In this document: positions 1,430 through 8,275 of the stretch, in pieces
How positions within the stretch are numbered: position 1 is the stretch's first letter
Layout of the letters: every line of letters begins with the position of its first letter
Assembly: GCF_039696035.1 (NCBI RefSeq)
Contig: NZ_CP155567.1
Coordinates: 3,343,001 to 3,407,000, forward strand
DNA length: 64,000 nt
Origin: Microbulbifer sp. SAOS-129_SWC
GTDB taxonomy: Bacteria > Pseudomonadota > Gammaproteobacteria > Pseudomonadales > Cellvibrionaceae
Reading direction: 5' to 3'
Made by a program: the position numbers and the translations under genes
The notes under the pieces: generated by a model
The model's input: only the letters and a program-made list of their open reading frames with translations
Database searches by the model: none
Told to the model about the DNA's origin: nothing

Positions 1430-1957
1430 GGTAAGCCCGTCCTCTCTCTTATGGTTATCTCGTGAGGATCACGCCGCCGAATACCCCGCGACAGACGTGC
1501 ACTGATTTTTGTGTGGCGACCCGGTTGTGTCGGCGCACTTTTATTGTGCGGCCAGATTATGCAAATGGCGGGCGGGCGGCAACGCTTCTTTGCAAAACAC
1601 AAAAAAGAGTGCCAAAGAGTGTGACAAAGGTTACATATGATGTGGTTTTCCCCGCCACAAAGGATAGGTGTCAACAAACTGGAAAATTTTTGGATAAAGG
1701 GTCTCGCACTGGCGCTGGCTGCAGGATTATTTATCCCGCCAATTGGTCACCTATTGACCACAACCAGACACCAATTTCGCTGGCCGCCCACTCTCAACCC
1801 GGTCCCAACCGCAGGGTCCGACACGCTCGCACAACAGTCTCCCCACGACCAGGCCAGCAGTTACGACAATTCAAATGATAACTGTTTGCATTACGCTTAA
1901 CAGGCTACTAAACTCCGCCGCACATAACGACACCGTCTGATTTTTCTGGGGACCACC
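1430..1957. other. Divergent intergenic region, 528 bp
   Basis: This gap separates the divergent TonB receptor and the outer-membrane/flavin operon, so it must hold both promoters. It is AT-richer than its flanks. A weak open frame at 1637-1900 (87 codons, hydrophobic start) has no recognisable domain and I do not call it a gene. A small inverted repeat lies at 1744-1760 and near-direct repeats of AAAGAGTG occur around 1605-1620. Confidence 0.6.
1744..1760. promoter_or_regulatory. Candidate operator (6-bp inverted repeat)
   Basis: TGGTCA and TGACCA are separated by 5 bases, forming a short perfect dyad in the divergent promoter region. A dimeric regulator could bind here, but no regulator gene is adjacent and dyads this short arise by chance. 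Confidence 0.2.
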
Positions 1958-2848
1958 ATGCATCAGCTAAGCCGCCTTTCCACCATCGGCGCAGTCCTGG
2001 CCACTCTCTCCGCACCCGCGCTCGCCGACGAGAACCTGTTTGGCAACGTCAAAGGCGCCGAAACCATGCCCGAGGGCAGCTGGGAGGTGTATCAGATCTT
2101 CACCGACCGCAGCGACAAGGGTACCGGCCACTACCGCGCTTTCGACAGCACCACAGAAGTGGAATATGGCGTCAGCAACAAATTCACCGTCGGCGCCGGT
2201 CTCAAGGCCATCGCGGTGGACACCAGCGGTCTGGTGGTAGACGGCTATATCCCCGGCGACTACAAGCGCGACCTGAGCGTGGCGGGCTTCGAAGCCACGG
2301 CAAAATACAACTTCCTGAGCCCGGCGCTGGATGACTTTGGCCTGTCCGGCTTCTGGGAGTTCGACTATATGAGCATCGACCCCCACTCCGGCCGCGACAA
2401 GGACACCCTGTCGCTGGAATCCTCCCTGCTGGCACAGAAGTACCTGCTGGAAGGCCAGCTGATCTGGGTCGGCAACCTGTCCATGGAAGGCACCTACGCC
2501 AAGCGCAGCGCGATCAATAGCCTGCCGGACGGCTTCGAGTGGCCCACCGATCCGGAGATGGAGCTCGAATTCAAGCTGGGCTCGGGCGTGAGCTACCGCT
2601 TCGCGCCCAATTGGTTCGTGGGTGCAGAAATCAACTATGAGACCGAGTTCGAGACCGAGGTCGGCCAGGAGCGCTGGTCGGTGTTCGCCGGCCCCAACCT
2701 GCACTACGCCAACGCCAACTGGTGGGCCACGCTGTCGTGGATGCCGCAACTCGAGGGCGGTGGCGAAATGATCATCGCCGGCGACGACCTGCACCTGATC
2801 GAAAAGACCAAGAGCGAAGCCCGCCTGAAACTCGGCTACAACTTCTGA
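1958..2848 (+). CDS. DUF6662-like outer-membrane beta-barrel protein
   Basis: A 296-residue protein with a signal peptide ending in PALADE, then alternating amphipathic strands rich in Tyr, Trp, Gly and acidic residues, ending in a C-terminal aromatic (GYNF) as expected of an outer-membrane barrel. It resembles the DUF6662 family, whose function is not established. The start has a GGGGACC ribosome-binding site. The FMN-binding protein gene begins 11 bases after its stop, so the two are almost certainly co-transcribed. This links an outer-membrane protein to a periplasmic flavin carrier. Inference: it may be a conduit or receptor for the substrate reduced or oxidised by the flavin module. The barrel call is fairly sure and the role is open. 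Confidence 0.75.
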   Translation: MHQLSRLSTIGAVLATLSAPALADENLFGNVKGAETMPEGSWEVYQIFTDRSDKGTGHYRAFDSTTEVEYGVSNKFTVGAGLKAIAVDTSGLVVDGYIPGDYKRDLSVAGFEATAKYNFLSPALDDFGLSGFWEFDYMSIDPHSGRDKDTLSLESSLLAQKYLLEGQLIWVGNLSMEGTYAKRSAINSLPDGFEWPTDPEMELEFKLGSGVSYRFAPNWFVGAEINYETEFETEVGQERWSVFAGPNLHYANANWWATLSWMPQLEGGGEMIIAGDDLHLIEKTKSEARLKLGYNF

Positions 2849-2859
2849 GCGAAACAGTG

Positions 2860-3402
2860 ATGAAACACGAAATGCTGCTCGGCGCGCTGCTGCCGATTAC
2901 CGCGCTGGTCGCCCCGGCCTATGCCGCCGACTATCTGACGGTGGAGCAGGCCCAGCGCCAGTTCTTTCCCGATGCCAGCCAGTTCGTCGACAGCGCGCTC
3001 AACTTCGACGACGACCAGCGCGACGCGATCAAGGACCACGCCGGCACGCGCCAGCGCCGCGATCGCCAGCAGGTGTGGCGCGCCGCGCGCGACGGCGAGG
3101 ATCTGGGCTGGATGTTTGTCGACGACGTGATCGGCAAGCACGAGTTCATCACTTACGCGCTGGCGGTGTCCCCCGAGGGCGCGGTGCTGGGCATGGAGAT
3201 CCTCAGCTACCGTGAGACCCACGGCGGCGAAGTGCGCCAGGCCGACTGGCGCGAGCAGTTCGACGGCAAGTCACTCGACGACGCCCTCCGCCTGGGCAAG
3301 GATGTGTCCAATATCAGCGGTGCTACGCTGTCGTGCCGCAATGTCACCGATGGCGTGCGGCGGCTGCTGAATATCTGGGACCTGTACCTGAAAAATGCCT
3401 GA
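2860..3402 (+). CDS. Periplasmic FMN-binding domain protein (covalently flavinylated)
   Basis: A 180-residue protein with a Sec signal peptide (to about residue 22, ending AYAAD) and an FMN-binding domain. Residues 148-156 read DVSNISGAT, which matches the motif D...SGA(T/S) in which ApbE attaches FMN through a phosphoester to the Thr (here T156). The HGGEVRQ segment near residues 121-127 is also typical of the family. The gene overlaps the downstream ApbE gene by 8 bases, so modifying enzyme and target are translationally coupled. The ATG at 2860 is chosen because it places the signal peptide at the N terminus; the open frame continues upstream into the preceding gene. Inference: it is a one-electron carrier in the periplasm, fed by the membrane protein at the end of the operon. 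Confidence 0.88.
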   Translation: MKHEMLLGALLPITALVAPAYAADYLTVEQAQRQFFPDASQFVDSALNFDDDQRDAIKDHAGTRQRRDRQQVWRAARDGEDLGWMFVDDVIGKHEFITYALAVSPEGAVLGMEILSYRETHGGEVRQADWREQFDGKSLDDALRLGKDVSNISGATLSCRNVTDGVRRLLNIWDLYLKNA

Positions 3403-4261
3403 CTTCCCGGCTGTCGGGCCGGGGGCGCAGATCAAACGCATGCGCCCCCTGCTCGGCACCTATGTTGAGATCGCCGCGGGCGCTGTTGAAACGATGGCGG
3501 CGGAACGCGCCGAAGCCGCTATCCACAGCGCCTTCGACGTCATCGCCCTTATCCACAGGCTGGCCAGCTTCCAGCAACCCGACAGCGAACTCTCGCACCT
3601 GAATGCCAATCCCGGCCAGTGGCTGACACTCTCCCGCCACACGCTGCGGCTGCTCAGGCTGGCCCGCGCCATAACCGCGGCCAGCGATCACCTGTTCAAC
3701 TGCACCCTCGGCGGCGCCGTCGTGGCCCGCGGCGCCCTGCCCGACCACGGCGGCGATTATCTGGGCAGCGGCCGCGCCGACGATATTGAACTGGAGGCAG
3801 GCCGCGCGCGCCTCGCGCGCCCGGTGCGGATCACCCTCGACGGTATTGCCAAGGGCTACGCCGTGGATTGCGCCATCGCCGCGCTCAAACGCGCCGGCAT
3901 CACCGCCGGCTGGATCAACGCCGGTGGCGACCTGCGCGCCTTCGGGGAGTTAGCGCTGCCGGTATCACAGCGCCGCGCCGATAGCAGCACACGTTCCCTC
4001 GGCGCACTGCAAAATGCCGCGTTGGCCACTTCGCGTGCCGGCGGCGGTGTCGATGCCGATGTCCCCGGCCTGATTCTCGGTCCGGAAACCGCGCACGACG
4101 CCGCGGACATTGGCAAGGCCACAACCTTTAGCGTAATCTCGCGCTTCGCCTGGCGCGCCGACGCCCTGACCAAGGTCGCGGCGCTGGCACCGGCCGCTGA
4201 GCGCGCGGCGCGCGTCGCCGGCCTCGGCGGCCTGCTGATCGAAGAAGAAACCTGGAATTAA
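3395..4261 (+). CDS. apbE: FAD:protein FMN transferase, divergent ApbE
   Basis: A 288-residue ApbE-family protein that transfers FMN from FAD onto a Thr/Ser of its target. Visible family motifs are RPLLGTYVEI (19-28), DGIAKGYAVD (about 149-158), INAGGDLRAFG (about 175-185) and ADALTKVA near the C terminus. Two oddities stand out. The HHI(I/L)DP-type segment that usually follows the ATSG strand is replaced by a short sequence without the histidines. No signal peptide or lipobox is visible, although the target is exported and most Gram-negative ApbE proteins act in the periplasm. The gene sits directly between its probable substrate and the membrane protein. The family call is solid; the compartment in which it acts is uncertain. 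Confidence 0.87.
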   Translation: MPDFPAVGPGAQIKRMRPLLGTYVEIAAGAVETMAAERAEAAIHSAFDVIALIHRLASFQQPDSELSHLNANPGQWLTLSRHTLRLLRLARAITAASDHLFNCTLGGAVVARGALPDHGGDYLGSGRADDIELEAGRARLARPVRITLDGIAKGYAVDCAIAALKRAGITAGWINAGGDLRAFGELALPVSQRRADSSTRSLGALQNAALATSRAGGGVDADVPGLILGPETAHDAADIGKATTFSVISRFAWRADALTKVAALAPAAERAARVAGLGGLLIEEETWN

Positions 4262-4265
4262 CGAA

Positions 4266-4724
4266 ATGCGTCGCTTGAGCGGATACCCGCGCTGGTTCTA
4301 CGCCGCACTGATGATCACCGTCGCCGCGCTGACGGCCAGCGGCTTGCTGCTGATACCCAATATGATGGAGCTGCGCCTGGACATGGACGCGCCGCTGCAC
4401 TTCTCCGGTAGCCTACGCCTCGCCAGCGCCGCCACCCACAGCCTCACCGCGTTCCTCACCATCGGTCTGATCGGCGCCCTGGCCACGGTGCACATGCGCG
4501 CCGGCTGGCACCGCAGGCAGAATCGTGTGAGCGGGCTTTTGCTGGTACTGCTGTTCGCGTTTCTGCTTGCATCAGCGGTGGGGATCTACTATTTCGGCGA
4601 TATGGACCTGAGCCGGTTGTCCAGTCTCAGTCACAGCCTTGTCGGGTTGGTACTGGTACTACTGTTTGCATGGCACGCAGTGGTTGGGCGGCGGATCCGC
4701 TTGCAAAAGCGCCGCGGTCGATAA
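4266..4724 (+). CDS. Four-helix His-rich membrane protein (DUF4405/cytochrome-b-like)
   Basis: A 152-residue integral membrane protein with four predicted helices (about 11-30, 57-77, 88-110, 121-141). Histidines lie at positions 58 and 76 in helix 2 and at 123 and 137 in helix 4. This places one His pair near each face of the membrane, the geometry of a di-haem four-helix cytochrome b. It starts 4 bases after the apbE stop. In an operon with a flavinylated periplasmic carrier, a membrane haem protein would move electrons from the quinone pool or cytosol to the flavin, or the reverse. The resemblance to DUF4405-type proteins is my judgement from topology and His placement; no haem motif proves it. 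Confidence 0.65.
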   Translation: MRRLSGYPRWFYAALMITVAALTASGLLLIPNMMELRLDMDAPLHFSGSLRLASAATHSLTAFLTIGLIGALATVHMRAGWHRRQNRVSGLLLVLLFAFLLASAVGIYYFGDMDLSRLSSLSHSLVGLVLVLLFAWHAVVGRRIRLQKRRGR

Positions 4725-5039: not shown

Positions 5040-5741
5040 ATGAGCTTGGATAGCCTCACTGGATCGGCATTGATCCGTCTCGTTATTGCCCGGCAAATGA
5101 AAAACAGCCTCAAGGCGCAAGGACATGGCAAGTTGTGGCGCATGGTGCACGGCTTGTCAGAAAGCAGACTGTTAAAAAAACGCGTCCTGATATCCAACGA
5201 TTTCTATTCCGAGGACCCCTTTACCTGTTGGTGGCTGTTCCTCAACAAACCCACCACCGCCAACGAAATCATCATCAAGGAAGTCAGAGGCATCCTGATG
5301 GCACATGCGATAGGCGGTGTCGCCAACGCCATGGGAGGTCAGGTCAGGTCGGTTCACGAGGCTTACAGCCAGCTGTCCGATACCCACAAGGCGATGGGCG
5401 TGGCGAAACAGACCGTGTCGGCAAAAGCAATGGCCAACAAAACGTACAATAAACTGAATGATGCCTGGCAGGCCGGTGTATGGAGTGCGGCAAAGGGCAC
5501 AGCGCAGGAATTCTCGCTGGGATTTGACCAGATGTTAATCGGCGGCTGCGCGCATATTGAAAAGAACGGCAAAGACCTGGAAATCAACCTCCGCACCTGG
5601 AATAACAAAACCGACATGCTGTCTTTTATGAGCTTTGCGGAGAGCAAAGGCCGCTATTCAGAAGCCAGCCGAAAGTATACCCGCGGACTGTGTAGCGAGA
5701 TTAAATTTCGCTATGACGCCAGATTTGGTACTTTGGTGTGA
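5040..5741 (+). CDS. Hypothetical protein, unrecognised
   Basis: A 233-residue soluble protein that I do not recognise. There is no signal peptide, although residues 86-103 hold a moderately hydrophobic Ala/Gly-rich stretch (MAHAIGG...AMGG) that could be a buried or membrane-interacting helix. The middle is rich in Lys, Ala and Ser, and the C-terminal third alternates like beta strands with Trp and aromatic residues. An AAGGA ribosome-binding site lies just before the ATG. Codon use is less GC-biased than in its neighbours, which suggests recent acquisition. It stands alone between the flavin operon and the convergent Lon-like protease gene, so context gives no functional clue. Confidence 0.6.
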   Translation: MSLDSLTGSALIRLVIARQMKNSLKAQGHGKLWRMVHGLSESRLLKKRVLISNDFYSEDPFTCWWLFLNKPTTANEIIIKEVRGILMAHAIGGVANAMGGQVRSVHEAYSQLSDTHKAMGVAKQTVSAKAMANKTYNKLNDAWQAGVWSAAKGTAQEFSLGFDQMLIGGCAHIEKNGKDLEINLRTWNNKTDMLSFMSFAESKGRYSEASRKYTRGLCSEIKFRYDARFGTLV

Positions 5742-5800: not shown

Positions 5801-8275
5801 TCAATAGCGGTCCCGATCCGGTTTTTTCTCCTTGTTCTCGCCCACGGGTGCCGGTGGCTGGACGCCAGCGTCCAGCTCCTGCTGCAACAGCCGCGTACGC
5901 GTTTCCTCCAGCCGCCGCAATCGCTTCTGCACCTGACCGTTAAACGATTGCGCGGGAAAGCGGCCATCGTCGCCGGGACTGCCGGCGTCCAGTCCGCTGA
6001 GCAACGCCAGTGCTTCATCCACCTGTGCCACCGCATAGATGGAAAACTGCTGCGCGCGCACCGCCGCGACCACTTCCTGTTTCAACATCAGGTGCTGCAC
6101 ATTGGCCGCCGGAATAATTACGCCCTGATTGCCGTCCAGGCCGCGGGCCTGGCACAGCTCAAAAAAGCCCTCGATCTTTTCGTTAACGCCGCCGATCGCC
6201 TGTACGCGCCCCAGCTGGTTGACCGAGCCGGTGACGGCGAAACTCTGGCGCAGCGGCACTTGCGCAATCGCCGACAGCAACGCGCACAGCTCCGCCAGTG
6301 AGGCGCTGTCGCCGTCTACCGGACCATAGGACTGTTCGAATACCAGGCTCGCGGACAGCGACAGCGGCTCGGACGGCGCATAGCGGTTGGCGAGAAAGGC
6401 GCCAAGGATCAGCACCCCCTTGGAGTGCAGCGGGCCACCCAGTTCGGTCTCGCGCTCGATATCCACCATTTTGCCGCTGCCCAGGCGCGCGGTGGCCGTG
6501 ATGCGCGAGGGGCGGCCGAAGGCGGTGTCGCCGAGCTGGATCACGGAGAGACCGTTGATCTGCGCCACCTGTTCACCGGCGGTATCGATCATCAGGATAT
6601 CGCGCTCCACCGCTTCCTGCATACGCTCCTGCAACTGGCGCTGCCGATACTCGCGCTTTTCTATCGCCTTCTGGACATGCGCTGGCTCCACGCGGCTGTC
6701 GCTCTCGTGCCGGCACCAGTAGCCCGCTTCGCGCAGCATATCGGCAAGCCATTCGCGATGTAGCGACAGCTTCTGCGCATCCGCGGAGACCCGCGCGGCC
6801 TGCTCGATCACCCGCGCCACCGCCGCCGCAGACAGCGGCCGCAGTTTTTCGCTTTTTACCAGCGCATCGATCCAGCGGGCATAGGCGAGCACGCTGTGAC
6901 GGTCGCGGGTGATATCCTCGGAAAAATCGGCGTAGACCTTGAACAGCTGGCTGAATTCGGAGTCGTGCGCCTTCAGCAGGTGATAGATCCAGCGCTCGCC
7001 TACCAAGACCACGTTCAGCTGCAACGGAATCGGTTCTGGTTCCAGGCTGCTGGTGGACAGCAACCCCAGTTGCAACTCCAGTGGCTGAATACGAATTTCC
7101 TGTGAGCGCAGGGCGCGCTTGAGCGTCTCCCAGACATAGGGGGTCACCAGCAGCCGGTGCGCATCCAGAATCAGGCAGCCGCCGTTGGCGCGGTGCAGTG
7201 CCCCGCTCTTGACCAGGCTGAAATTGGTTAACAGGGCGCCCATCTGCGATTCGTATTCGACCCGCCCGAGCAGGTTGTGATAGGTGGGATTGTCCTCATA
7301 GACCACCGGGGCACCGTGCGCGCCGCCGTTATCGACGAGAATATTGACCCGGAAGCGGGTGAACTCCGATGCGCGAATCAATTTAGCGGGCGCAATGCCC
7401 TCCTTCTCGCCGCGCTCGCCGGCAGCGCGAAAGTCATCGGTATTCTGCGTGACTTCCCGTTTGATATTTTCGATAAACGCCTGCACCGTTTTCGAGCCGA
7501 GATAGCGCCGGCGCAGCCAGTCGATGCGCTCGTCGAGAGTCAGGTGCAGGTACTCGCTGTTCAGCTGCTTCACATCCTCGGCCAGCTGTTCGTGCCAGCG
7601 CAACGCCTGGCCCAGGGTCTCCTTGAGATCGATATTGACCTGCTCAATGTTGTCCTTGAGGCGCTGCTGCTCTTCCGCCGGCAGCTTGCCGAACTCCTCC
7701 GGACTGATAAATTCGCCCTCCCGCAGCGGCCCGATGGTGTAACCGGAGGGCGTGCGCACGACGCCGATACCCAGCGCTCTGGCGCGCTGCACCAGCGCGC
7801 TGAACGCCTGTTCCTCGCGCTCTTCCAGCGCCTGCTTGAGTTCGTCGCGGCGCGCGCGGTACTCCTCGCTGCGGAAGATATCGGGAATGGCGGTGAGCAG
7901 GTGTTCGAGCAGGTCGTCGATGTCGCGCTGTAGCTCGCGCGCCGTGCCCGCGGGCAACACCAGCGCGCAGGGGCGGTGCTCGGACTCGAAGTTGTGGATA
8001 TAGCAGAGATCGCTGGCCGGCTCCTGGCGCCCGGCCCAGGCGCCGATCTGCTGTCGGGCCAGGTCGTGCCGCCCGAGCCCTACCGAACCGGCGACATAGA
8101 GGTTGTAGCCCTTCTGCGGCATCTCGACGGCGAATTCCAGCGCCTCCAGCGCGCGCGTCTGACCCAGTGGCTGGCGCGTGATATCCCGCCCGGGTTCGGC
8201 TTCGGGTTCGGCGCGCAGCCACTCCAGCGGGCAGTGCCAGTACAGCTGCTCGGGCAGCAGGGGGCTTGGGTTCAT
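5801..8275 (-). CDS. Lon-like ATP-dependent protease (S16 family, LonB/YcbZ type)
   Basis: An 824-residue protein with an N-terminal and central AAA-like region and a C-terminal S16 peptidase domain. The nucleophile Ser is in the segment GPVDGDSAS and its partner Lys lies in GGVNEKIEGF, giving the Ser-Lys dyad of Lon proteases. The Walker A-like loop at residues 63-70 is GSVGLGRH, so the usual Lys-Thr is Arg-His, and the Walker B-like strand reads CLILDAH without the acidic pair. Such degeneracy is seen in this Lon-like branch and raises the question of how ATP is used. A coiled-coil-like helical segment (about 120-260) precedes the AAA core. It likely degrades misfolded or specific regulatory proteins in the cytosol. 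The gene is monocistronic as far as can be seen. Confidence 0.88.
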   Translation of the reverse strand: MNPSPLLPEQLYWHCPLEWLRAEPEAEPGRDITRQPLGQTRALEALEFAVEMPQKGYNLYVAGSVGLGRHDLARQQIGAWAGRQEPASDLCYIHNFESEHRPCALVLPAGTARELQRDIDDLLEHLLTAIPDIFRSEEYRARRDELKQALEEREEQAFSALVQRARALGIGVVRTPSGYTIGPLREGEFISPEEFGKLPAEEQQRLKDNIEQVNIDLKETLGQALRWHEQLAEDVKQLNSEYLHLTLDERIDWLRRRYLGSKTVQAFIENIKREVTQNTDDFRAAGERGEKEGIAPAKLIRASEFTRFRVNILVDNGGAHGAPVVYEDNPTYHNLLGRVEYESQMGALLTNFSLVKSGALHRANGGCLILDAHRLLVTPYVWETLKRALRSQEIRIQPLELQLGLLSTSSLEPEPIPLQLNVVLVGERWIYHLLKAHDSEFSQLFKVYADFSEDITRDRHSVLAYARWIDALVKSEKLRPLSAAAVARVIEQAARVSADAQKLSLHREWLADMLREAGYWCRHESDSRVEPAHVQKAIEKREYRQRQLQERMQEAVERDILMIDTAGEQVAQINGLSVIQLGDTAFGRPSRITATARLGSGKMVDIERETELGGPLHSKGVLILGAFLANRYAPSEPLSLSASLVFEQSYGPVDGDSASLAELCALLSAIAQVPLRQSFAVTGSVNQLGRVQAIGGVNEKIEGFFELCQARGLDGNQGVIIPAANVQHLMLKQEVVAAVRAQQFSIYAVAQVDEALALLSGLDAGSPGDDGRFPAQSFNGQVQKRLRRLEETRTRLLQQELDAGVQPPAPVGENKEKKPDRDRY

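Follow-up and report, generated by a model that had tools for sequence, protein, structure and literature searches.

The window, i.e. the whole stretch of 64,000 nucleotides that was analysed (contig NZ_CP155567.1 of Microbulbifer sp. SAOS-129_SWC, whose genome is one contig of 4.63 Mb), carries near its start a four-gene operon encoding an outer-membrane barrel of the DUF6662 family, an exported protein of the FMN_bind family (FMN, flavin mononucleotide; hereafter the FMN protein), a flavin transferase of the ApbE family and a small membrane protein, preceded by a palindrome resembling a Fur box (Table 1). The barrel and FMN genes are 11 bases apart, the FMN and ApbE genes overlap by 8 bases, and 4 bases separate the ApbE gene from the membrane protein gene. 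A preliminary description of this stretch had already proposed this packing and the DUF6662 and ApbE identities; coordinates, strand, spacing and Pfam scores all bear them out.

Table 1. Positions of the operon, of the Fur-box-like sites and of neighbouring genes (window numbering unless otherwise stated; scores in bits)
Feature	Position	Strand	Remarks
DUF6662 outer-membrane barrel	1958-2848	+	296 residues; PF20367 325.8, cut-off 27
Exported FMN_bind protein	2860-3402	+	180 residues; PF04205 41.7, cut-off 22
ApbE flavin transferase	3395-4261	+	288 residues; PF02424 100.2, cut-off 25.6
Four-helix membrane protein, probable di-haem b cytochrome	4266-4724	+	152 residues; His58, His76, His123, His137
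Fur-box-like palindrome AATGATAACTGTTTGCATT	1874-1892		start 84 nt before barrel ATG; de novo motif, genome pattern scan
Two other strong Fur-box matches	G000:C1:1035283 and 1036731 (L128 7284, 8732)		
Cytochrome b561 gene	L128 6505-7053		adjoins the two other Fur-box matches
TonB receptor	2-1429 (L124 3824-6430)	-	868 residues; divergent from the operon
Protein directly downstream of the operon	5040-5741		233 residues; no Pfam or NCBIfam match above cut-off
LonB-like AAA protease	5801-8275	-	824 residues

Genome contigs were scanned with the FMN protein, and the best 80 of 145 relatives were retained as loci; some of their hosts are bins and may be wrongly assigned. The nearest relatives among those retained belong to Microbulbifer hainanensis (85 percent) and M. 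variabilis (81 percent). The neighbourhood search that the preliminary description had called for recovered the complete cassette, with all four genes on one strand and their order unchanged, in 72 of the 80 loci (73 with profiles built from these families). The four-gene arrangement is not due to chance, since its order is kept in 72/80 relatives. The barrel and FMN genes lie side by side, and the barrel comes first in the cassette, in all 80 loci. Four of the eight incomplete loci have no detected membrane protein gene, three lack both the ApbE and the membrane protein gene, and one lacks the ApbE gene only. One of these (L010) is complete by profile; a contig end lies within 1.5 kb of the FMN gene in three of the seven loci still incomplete by profile, and four loci are considered as truly incomplete (L016, L033, L063, L080).

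As the 80 loci are biased towards close relatives of the query, a second search was performed from the barrel family. Counting this genome in both samples, DUF6662 was detected in 3 of 293 genomes from the order and in 11 of 398 from the phylum, and no match was obtained in six other genomes of the genus that were sampled, indicating a patchy cassette. In this family-found set, 13 DUF6662 genes were retrieved from 12 other genomes: 11 lie inside complete cassettes, and the barrel, FMN and membrane protein genes occur together in 12, L122 having these three without ApbE. L119 has only the barrel gene, accompanied by a separate Fur-box-like site, in a genome that holds a complete cassette elsewhere. 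Both searches support the conservation, as a unit, of a dedicated flavinylation cassette with its own barrel, carrier and membrane protein of di-haem plan.

Some variants were also observed, with two consecutive FMN genes (L067, L077) or two barrels (L063). The cassettes from Verrucomicrobia (L046, L053, L068, L072, L078) sit between genes reading as rpoC and rpsB, and their barrels match weakly (E 9e-24 to 5e-08).

For the analysis of regulation, 43 representatives were taken at 75 percent barrel identity, of which 3 were dropped for short upstream sequence. An unsupervised palindromic expectation-maximisation (EM) search of the 40 remaining non-redundant regions upstream of the barrel gene returned AATGATAATCATTATCATT, which corresponds to the Fur box consensus. 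Sites above 8 bits were present in 21/40 barrel upstream regions and in 35/485 control regions (Fisher p 2.7e-12, an optimistic value because the motif was trained on the tested 40 regions). The EM search scored 172 on these regions and 44-53 on six control sets, each of 41 regions; a Fur-like motif also emerged from one control set, since iron genes are present among the control regions. A Fur consensus read in one register had matched the window at only 11/19 positions (p 0.16) and was superseded by the de novo motif, found in the other register; scanning with the former consensus gave a mean of 11.46 in 78 cassettes (2 of the 80 being dropped for short upstream sequence) and of 10.18 in 487 controls.

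With Microbulbifer left out of the training, the site at 1874-1892 scored 21.6 bits, the next best in the 64 kb reaching 6.8; a second matrix, from which the window was also excluded, gave 25.1 bits against 12.7 for the runner-up. The strict pattern AATGNNAANNNTTNNCATT occurs at three sites of the genome, including this one, while its reversed control has none, and with up to 3 mismatches allowed the pattern matched the window once and none of 100 shuffles. The other two strict sites precede, respectively, a PepSY_TM gene and a TonB receptor gene followed by a PKHD-type hydroxylase gene, which are usual Fur targets. A Fur protein is encoded in the genome. A cytochrome b561 gene adjoins the two other strong matches listed in Table 1.

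In the family-found set, a barrel-start zone was defined, spanning 220 nt upstream and 90 nt downstream of the first possible start, and its best site outscored all other positions of the 13-14.5 kb locus in 13/13 cases, of which at most 12 are independent as the L114 site belonged to the motif training set. The margin is thin in L111 (19.8 vs 19.7), and the runner-up lies near the same start in L115, L117, L118 and L120. With an upstream box thus conserved in relatives, the operon would be classed as a member of the Fur regulon. This box, as well as the iron-gene company of the cassette, had been missed in the preliminary description.

This company was searched with five iron-gene queries, FeoB being counted within about 6 kb. 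FeoB was found near 13 of the 80 loci, bacterioferritin near 10 and either of them near 17, mostly in Hydrogenophilales, Thiobacillus, Sulfuriferula and nearby bins. Flanking genes were called by our own codon score (207 downstream and 213 upstream calls), and Pfam families were assigned to 65 downstream genes (64 plus one farther gene) and 73 upstream genes, mostly those on the same strand or nearest. Among the families listed, FeoA tops the downstream tally (7/65 scanned), and upstream FeoA and FeoB (4 each of 73) come behind response regulators (5); both tallies lean to iron genes because the sets were chosen after the FeoB/bacterioferritin clusters appeared. Beside L111-L123, where all 78 flank calls were scanned, the commonest family among those listed was ABC_tran (6/68). 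In L111, genes for DHOR, imelysin and DUF1513, an iron-linked set, lie directly upstream on the same strand. A divergent TonB receptor is found in L122 and L123, and the window operon also faces one. A gene for a DNA/RNA non-specific endonuclease lies directly upstream of the barrel, on the same strand, in one small-genome family (L115, L117, L119, L120), and a porin-like family recurs near the cassette (L050, L059, L065 and others), with one sequence cluster spanning 14 loci; Porin_O_P or Porin_4 matches were obtained among these neighbours.

The DVSNISGAT motif pointed out in the preliminary description is present in the FMN protein, and within its NISGAT core Thr156, Gly154 and Asn151 are each found in 81/81 sequences. 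A second stretch, GKHEFITY (residues 92-99, window 3133-3156), is equally invariant (81/81); its His94 and Glu95 could form a metal or partner site. The ApbE core is also conserved, with G150, A152, K153, G154 and D158 in 77/77 sequences and N175-D179 in at least 75/77. An ApbE and a substrate with an [ST]GA[ST] motif are encoded in one locus, as expected of an ApbE-dependent flavinylation system. The FMN protein resembles RnfG and NqrC by its FMN_bind family and its Ser/Thr flavinylation motif (NCBIfam rnfG 37 bits, cut-off 102), but differs from them as a free, exported carrier with its own GKHEFITY, and in that the cassette holds neither Rnf nor Nqr genes.

The cassette ApbE has no recognisable signal peptide. 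A hydrophobic N-terminal stretch was detected in 5/76 ApbE sequences and in none of the 71 others, with a crude test that was positive in 75/80 FMN proteins and in only 55/80 barrels; by this test the cassette ApbE lacks the signal peptide that defines the extracytosolic subtype. The second ApbE of the genome (L001) has a lipoprotein-like signal; at a distance of 3 kb from it lies another FMN_bind gene, which probably encodes NqrC. Either the cassette ApbE acts before export, or the L001 enzyme serves the exported carrier, or enzyme and substrate meet in some other way. Passages of PMC12052999 describe cytosolic ApbEs, e.g. in Klebsiella, acting on a soluble fumarate reductase.

In the small membrane protein, His58, His76, His123 and His137 are retained in 74, 74, 74 and 73 of 74 sequences, respectively. 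The structure model (pLDDT, the predicted local distance difference test, 94.8) has four helices, with the histidines on helices 2 (48-82) and 4 (113-151). The di-haem-like histidine plan of the preliminary description is thus upheld, and the protein is probably a di-haem b cytochrome. Its DUF4405 label finds no support in the sequence: the best Pfam match has an E value of 0.24, none of the Pfam or NCBIfam matches is above cut-off, and DUF4405 is not among the Pfam matches at E up to 1 (a range where HMMER filtering leaves few matches beyond about 0.1). The model, moreover, has four membrane helices, not the six given for DUF4405 in passages of PMC11334425, where a DUF4405 protein is demonstrated to bind haem b. 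The likeness to DUF4405/FezC lies in a small membrane protein with four central histidines, apparently placed for two haems in the cassette protein too, and in the occurrence of DUF4405 beside apbE; the difference lies in the missing Pfam match, the four predicted helices and the barrel, which goes unmentioned in the passages on DUF4405/FezC (PMC11334425). PF01292 (prokaryotic cytochrome b561) scored 24.5-25.3 bits in three relatives tested (cut-off 30.1), and the window protein did not match it at E up to 1. No PepSY_TM match was obtained for it in Pfam either, the PepSY_TM protein of the genome lying elsewhere.

The barrel has a signal peptide (by eye), 12 predicted strands and a C-terminal Phe, and it was modelled as a 12-stranded, channel-type fold of the 4rl8 type. 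Identity with the COG4313 channel Pput2725 (PDB 4rl8) and with FapF (5o65) is about 10 percent, and DUF6662 is a separate Pfam family. PF13557 (Phenol_MetA_deg), which represents COG4313, scored 17.7 bits against the barrel, below its cut-off of 22. The mature barrel contains no cysteine and no [ST]GA[ST] flavinylation motif, which leaves no place for any known covalent redox cofactor. The lumen is predicted to be polar and net acidic, a property that would favour hydrophilic or cationic molecules, for instance iron or one of its complexes.

Considering these data together, the cassette is likely to be a Fur-repressed operon for periplasmic ferric reduction and uptake under iron starvation, and not a conduit through the barrel. 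Reductive iron acquisition most simply explains why a Fur box and iron neighbours occur with a flavin carrier and a membrane protein of di-haem type. Under iron starvation, Fur would leave the site at 1874-1892 and the four genes would be expressed together, as suggested by the site and by the gene packing. The membrane protein would take electrons, most likely from quinol, and two b haems, held by the four conserved histidines of helices 2 and 4, would pass them across the inner membrane. The electrons would then reach an FMN covalently bound on Thr156, an attachment that the motif seen here would predict, given the known behaviour of ApbE and FMN_bind proteins, and the reduced flavin protein would reduce periplasmic Fe(III) or a ferric chelate. 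Fe(II) would enter through FeoB where present, or else through another importer, as in this genome. The weakest step is the last one, in which the DUF6662 barrel may be the operon's own outer-membrane channel.

Known systems offer a partial model. Flavinylation gene clusters have been linked to iron reduction in passages of PMC8238504. The same passages place under Fur repression, in Caulobacter and Shewanella, the PepSY-like clusters (PepSY_TM, DUF2271, ApbE, DUF4198; Caulobacter operon in PMC3751524), which share with the cassette an ApbE, a flavinylated exported carrier, a membrane electron carrier, Fur control and a proposed role in iron reduction and assimilation. The cassette differs from them in having FMN_bind instead of DUF2271, a small membrane protein without PepSY_TM and its own barrel.

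Several observations weigh against iron acquisition. A Fur box indicates iron control, not iron handling by the product, and it is absent or weak in 19/40 representatives. FeoB or bacterioferritin is nearby in 7 of the 19 box-less representatives and in 0 of the 20 boxed ones from other genomes; the two lines of evidence therefore seldom support the same locus. Box and iron neighbours substitute for each other, perhaps because the cassette then forms part of a larger iron cluster. The Feo and ferritin neighbours come mostly from one betaproteobacterial branch, the five iron-gene queries gave 0 matches in the 13 family-found loci, and the Verrucomicrobia copies have neither a Fur box nor the queried iron genes. 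FeoB is missing from this genome: no FeoB_C match was found, and the FeoB_N matches (at most 64 bits) are as expected of other GTPases. A two-haem protein costs iron during starvation, and the cassette ApbE seems to be a cytosolic enzyme, although the carrier that it presumably modifies is exported. Finally, COG4313, the closest barrel fold, is thought to transport hydrophobic molecules according to passages of PMC4493636, in contrast to the charged lumen predicted for the DUF6662 barrel.

Three other explanations were weighed. The preliminary description had proposed a self-contained envelope redox conduit, leading from membrane haem to periplasmic flavin, then to or through the barrel and on to an outside acceptor. 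The dedicated, conserved cassette with its own barrel holds, this barrel heading every one of the 80 loci and being accompanied by a flavin carrier and a membrane protein of di-haem type. Passage to or through the outer membrane does not: Mtr-type porin-cytochrome conduits are defined by a large barrel and a decahaem, whereas no redox cofactor in or through the 12-stranded DUF6662 barrel was recognised, cysteine (and hence c haem) and flavinylation motif both being absent from its mature part. No c-type cytochrome is found among the four cassette proteins, and control by Fur fits acquisition better than respiration, so that this conduit is judged highly improbable. The operon might instead handle ferric siderophores or haem already imported by a TonB receptor, the barrel then serving to export a product such as free siderophore or flavin and not to import iron; considering that no siderophore-synthesis family is prominent among the neighbour families listed (the first 25 per tally) and that export genes vary from locus to locus, we hold this to be unlikely.

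An iron-sparing or stress role, in which the flavin protein replaces an iron-containing periplasmic carrier or keeps the periplasmic redox pool reduced, would fit Fur control and the report, in the abstract of PMC8238504, that flavinylated proteins and cytochromes replace one another in respiratory clusters. It is nevertheless given very little credence, as a probable two-haem protein is among the products of the cassette, no oxidoreductase partner is prominent among the neighbour families listed, and the barrel is left unexplained.

Periplasmic ferric reduction and uptake under Fur control thus remains the preferred explanation. A more specific form of it would be a TonB- and siderophore-independent reductive uptake, where DUF6662 is an iron-specific channel feeding Fe(III) to the flavin protein at its periplasmic mouth, a minimal di-haem cytochrome of 152 residues supplies the reduction, and the signal-less ApbE flavinylates the carrier in the cytosol before or during export; taken as a whole, this scheme is speculative and rather doubtful.

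In the literature searched, no description of the cassette was found, though published supplementary cluster tables, which lay outside this search, may list the neighbourhood, and no paper names DUF6662. Neither of two flavinylation surveys (PMC8238504, PMC11334425) uses the word "barrel" in its main text, and DUF4405 is absent from that of the 2021 survey.

The presence of a signal-less ApbE beside an exported substrate raises the question of where flavinylation occurs. Little is understood about assimilatory ferric reductases in bacteria, and it would be unusual for a reductase to be encoded together with an outer-membrane channel of its own. With the proposed role, DUF6662 and a small cytochrome-like family unnamed by Pfam acquire a function that can be tested, and both families would be placed in the iron starvation biology of Gamma-, Beta- and Alphaproteobacteria.

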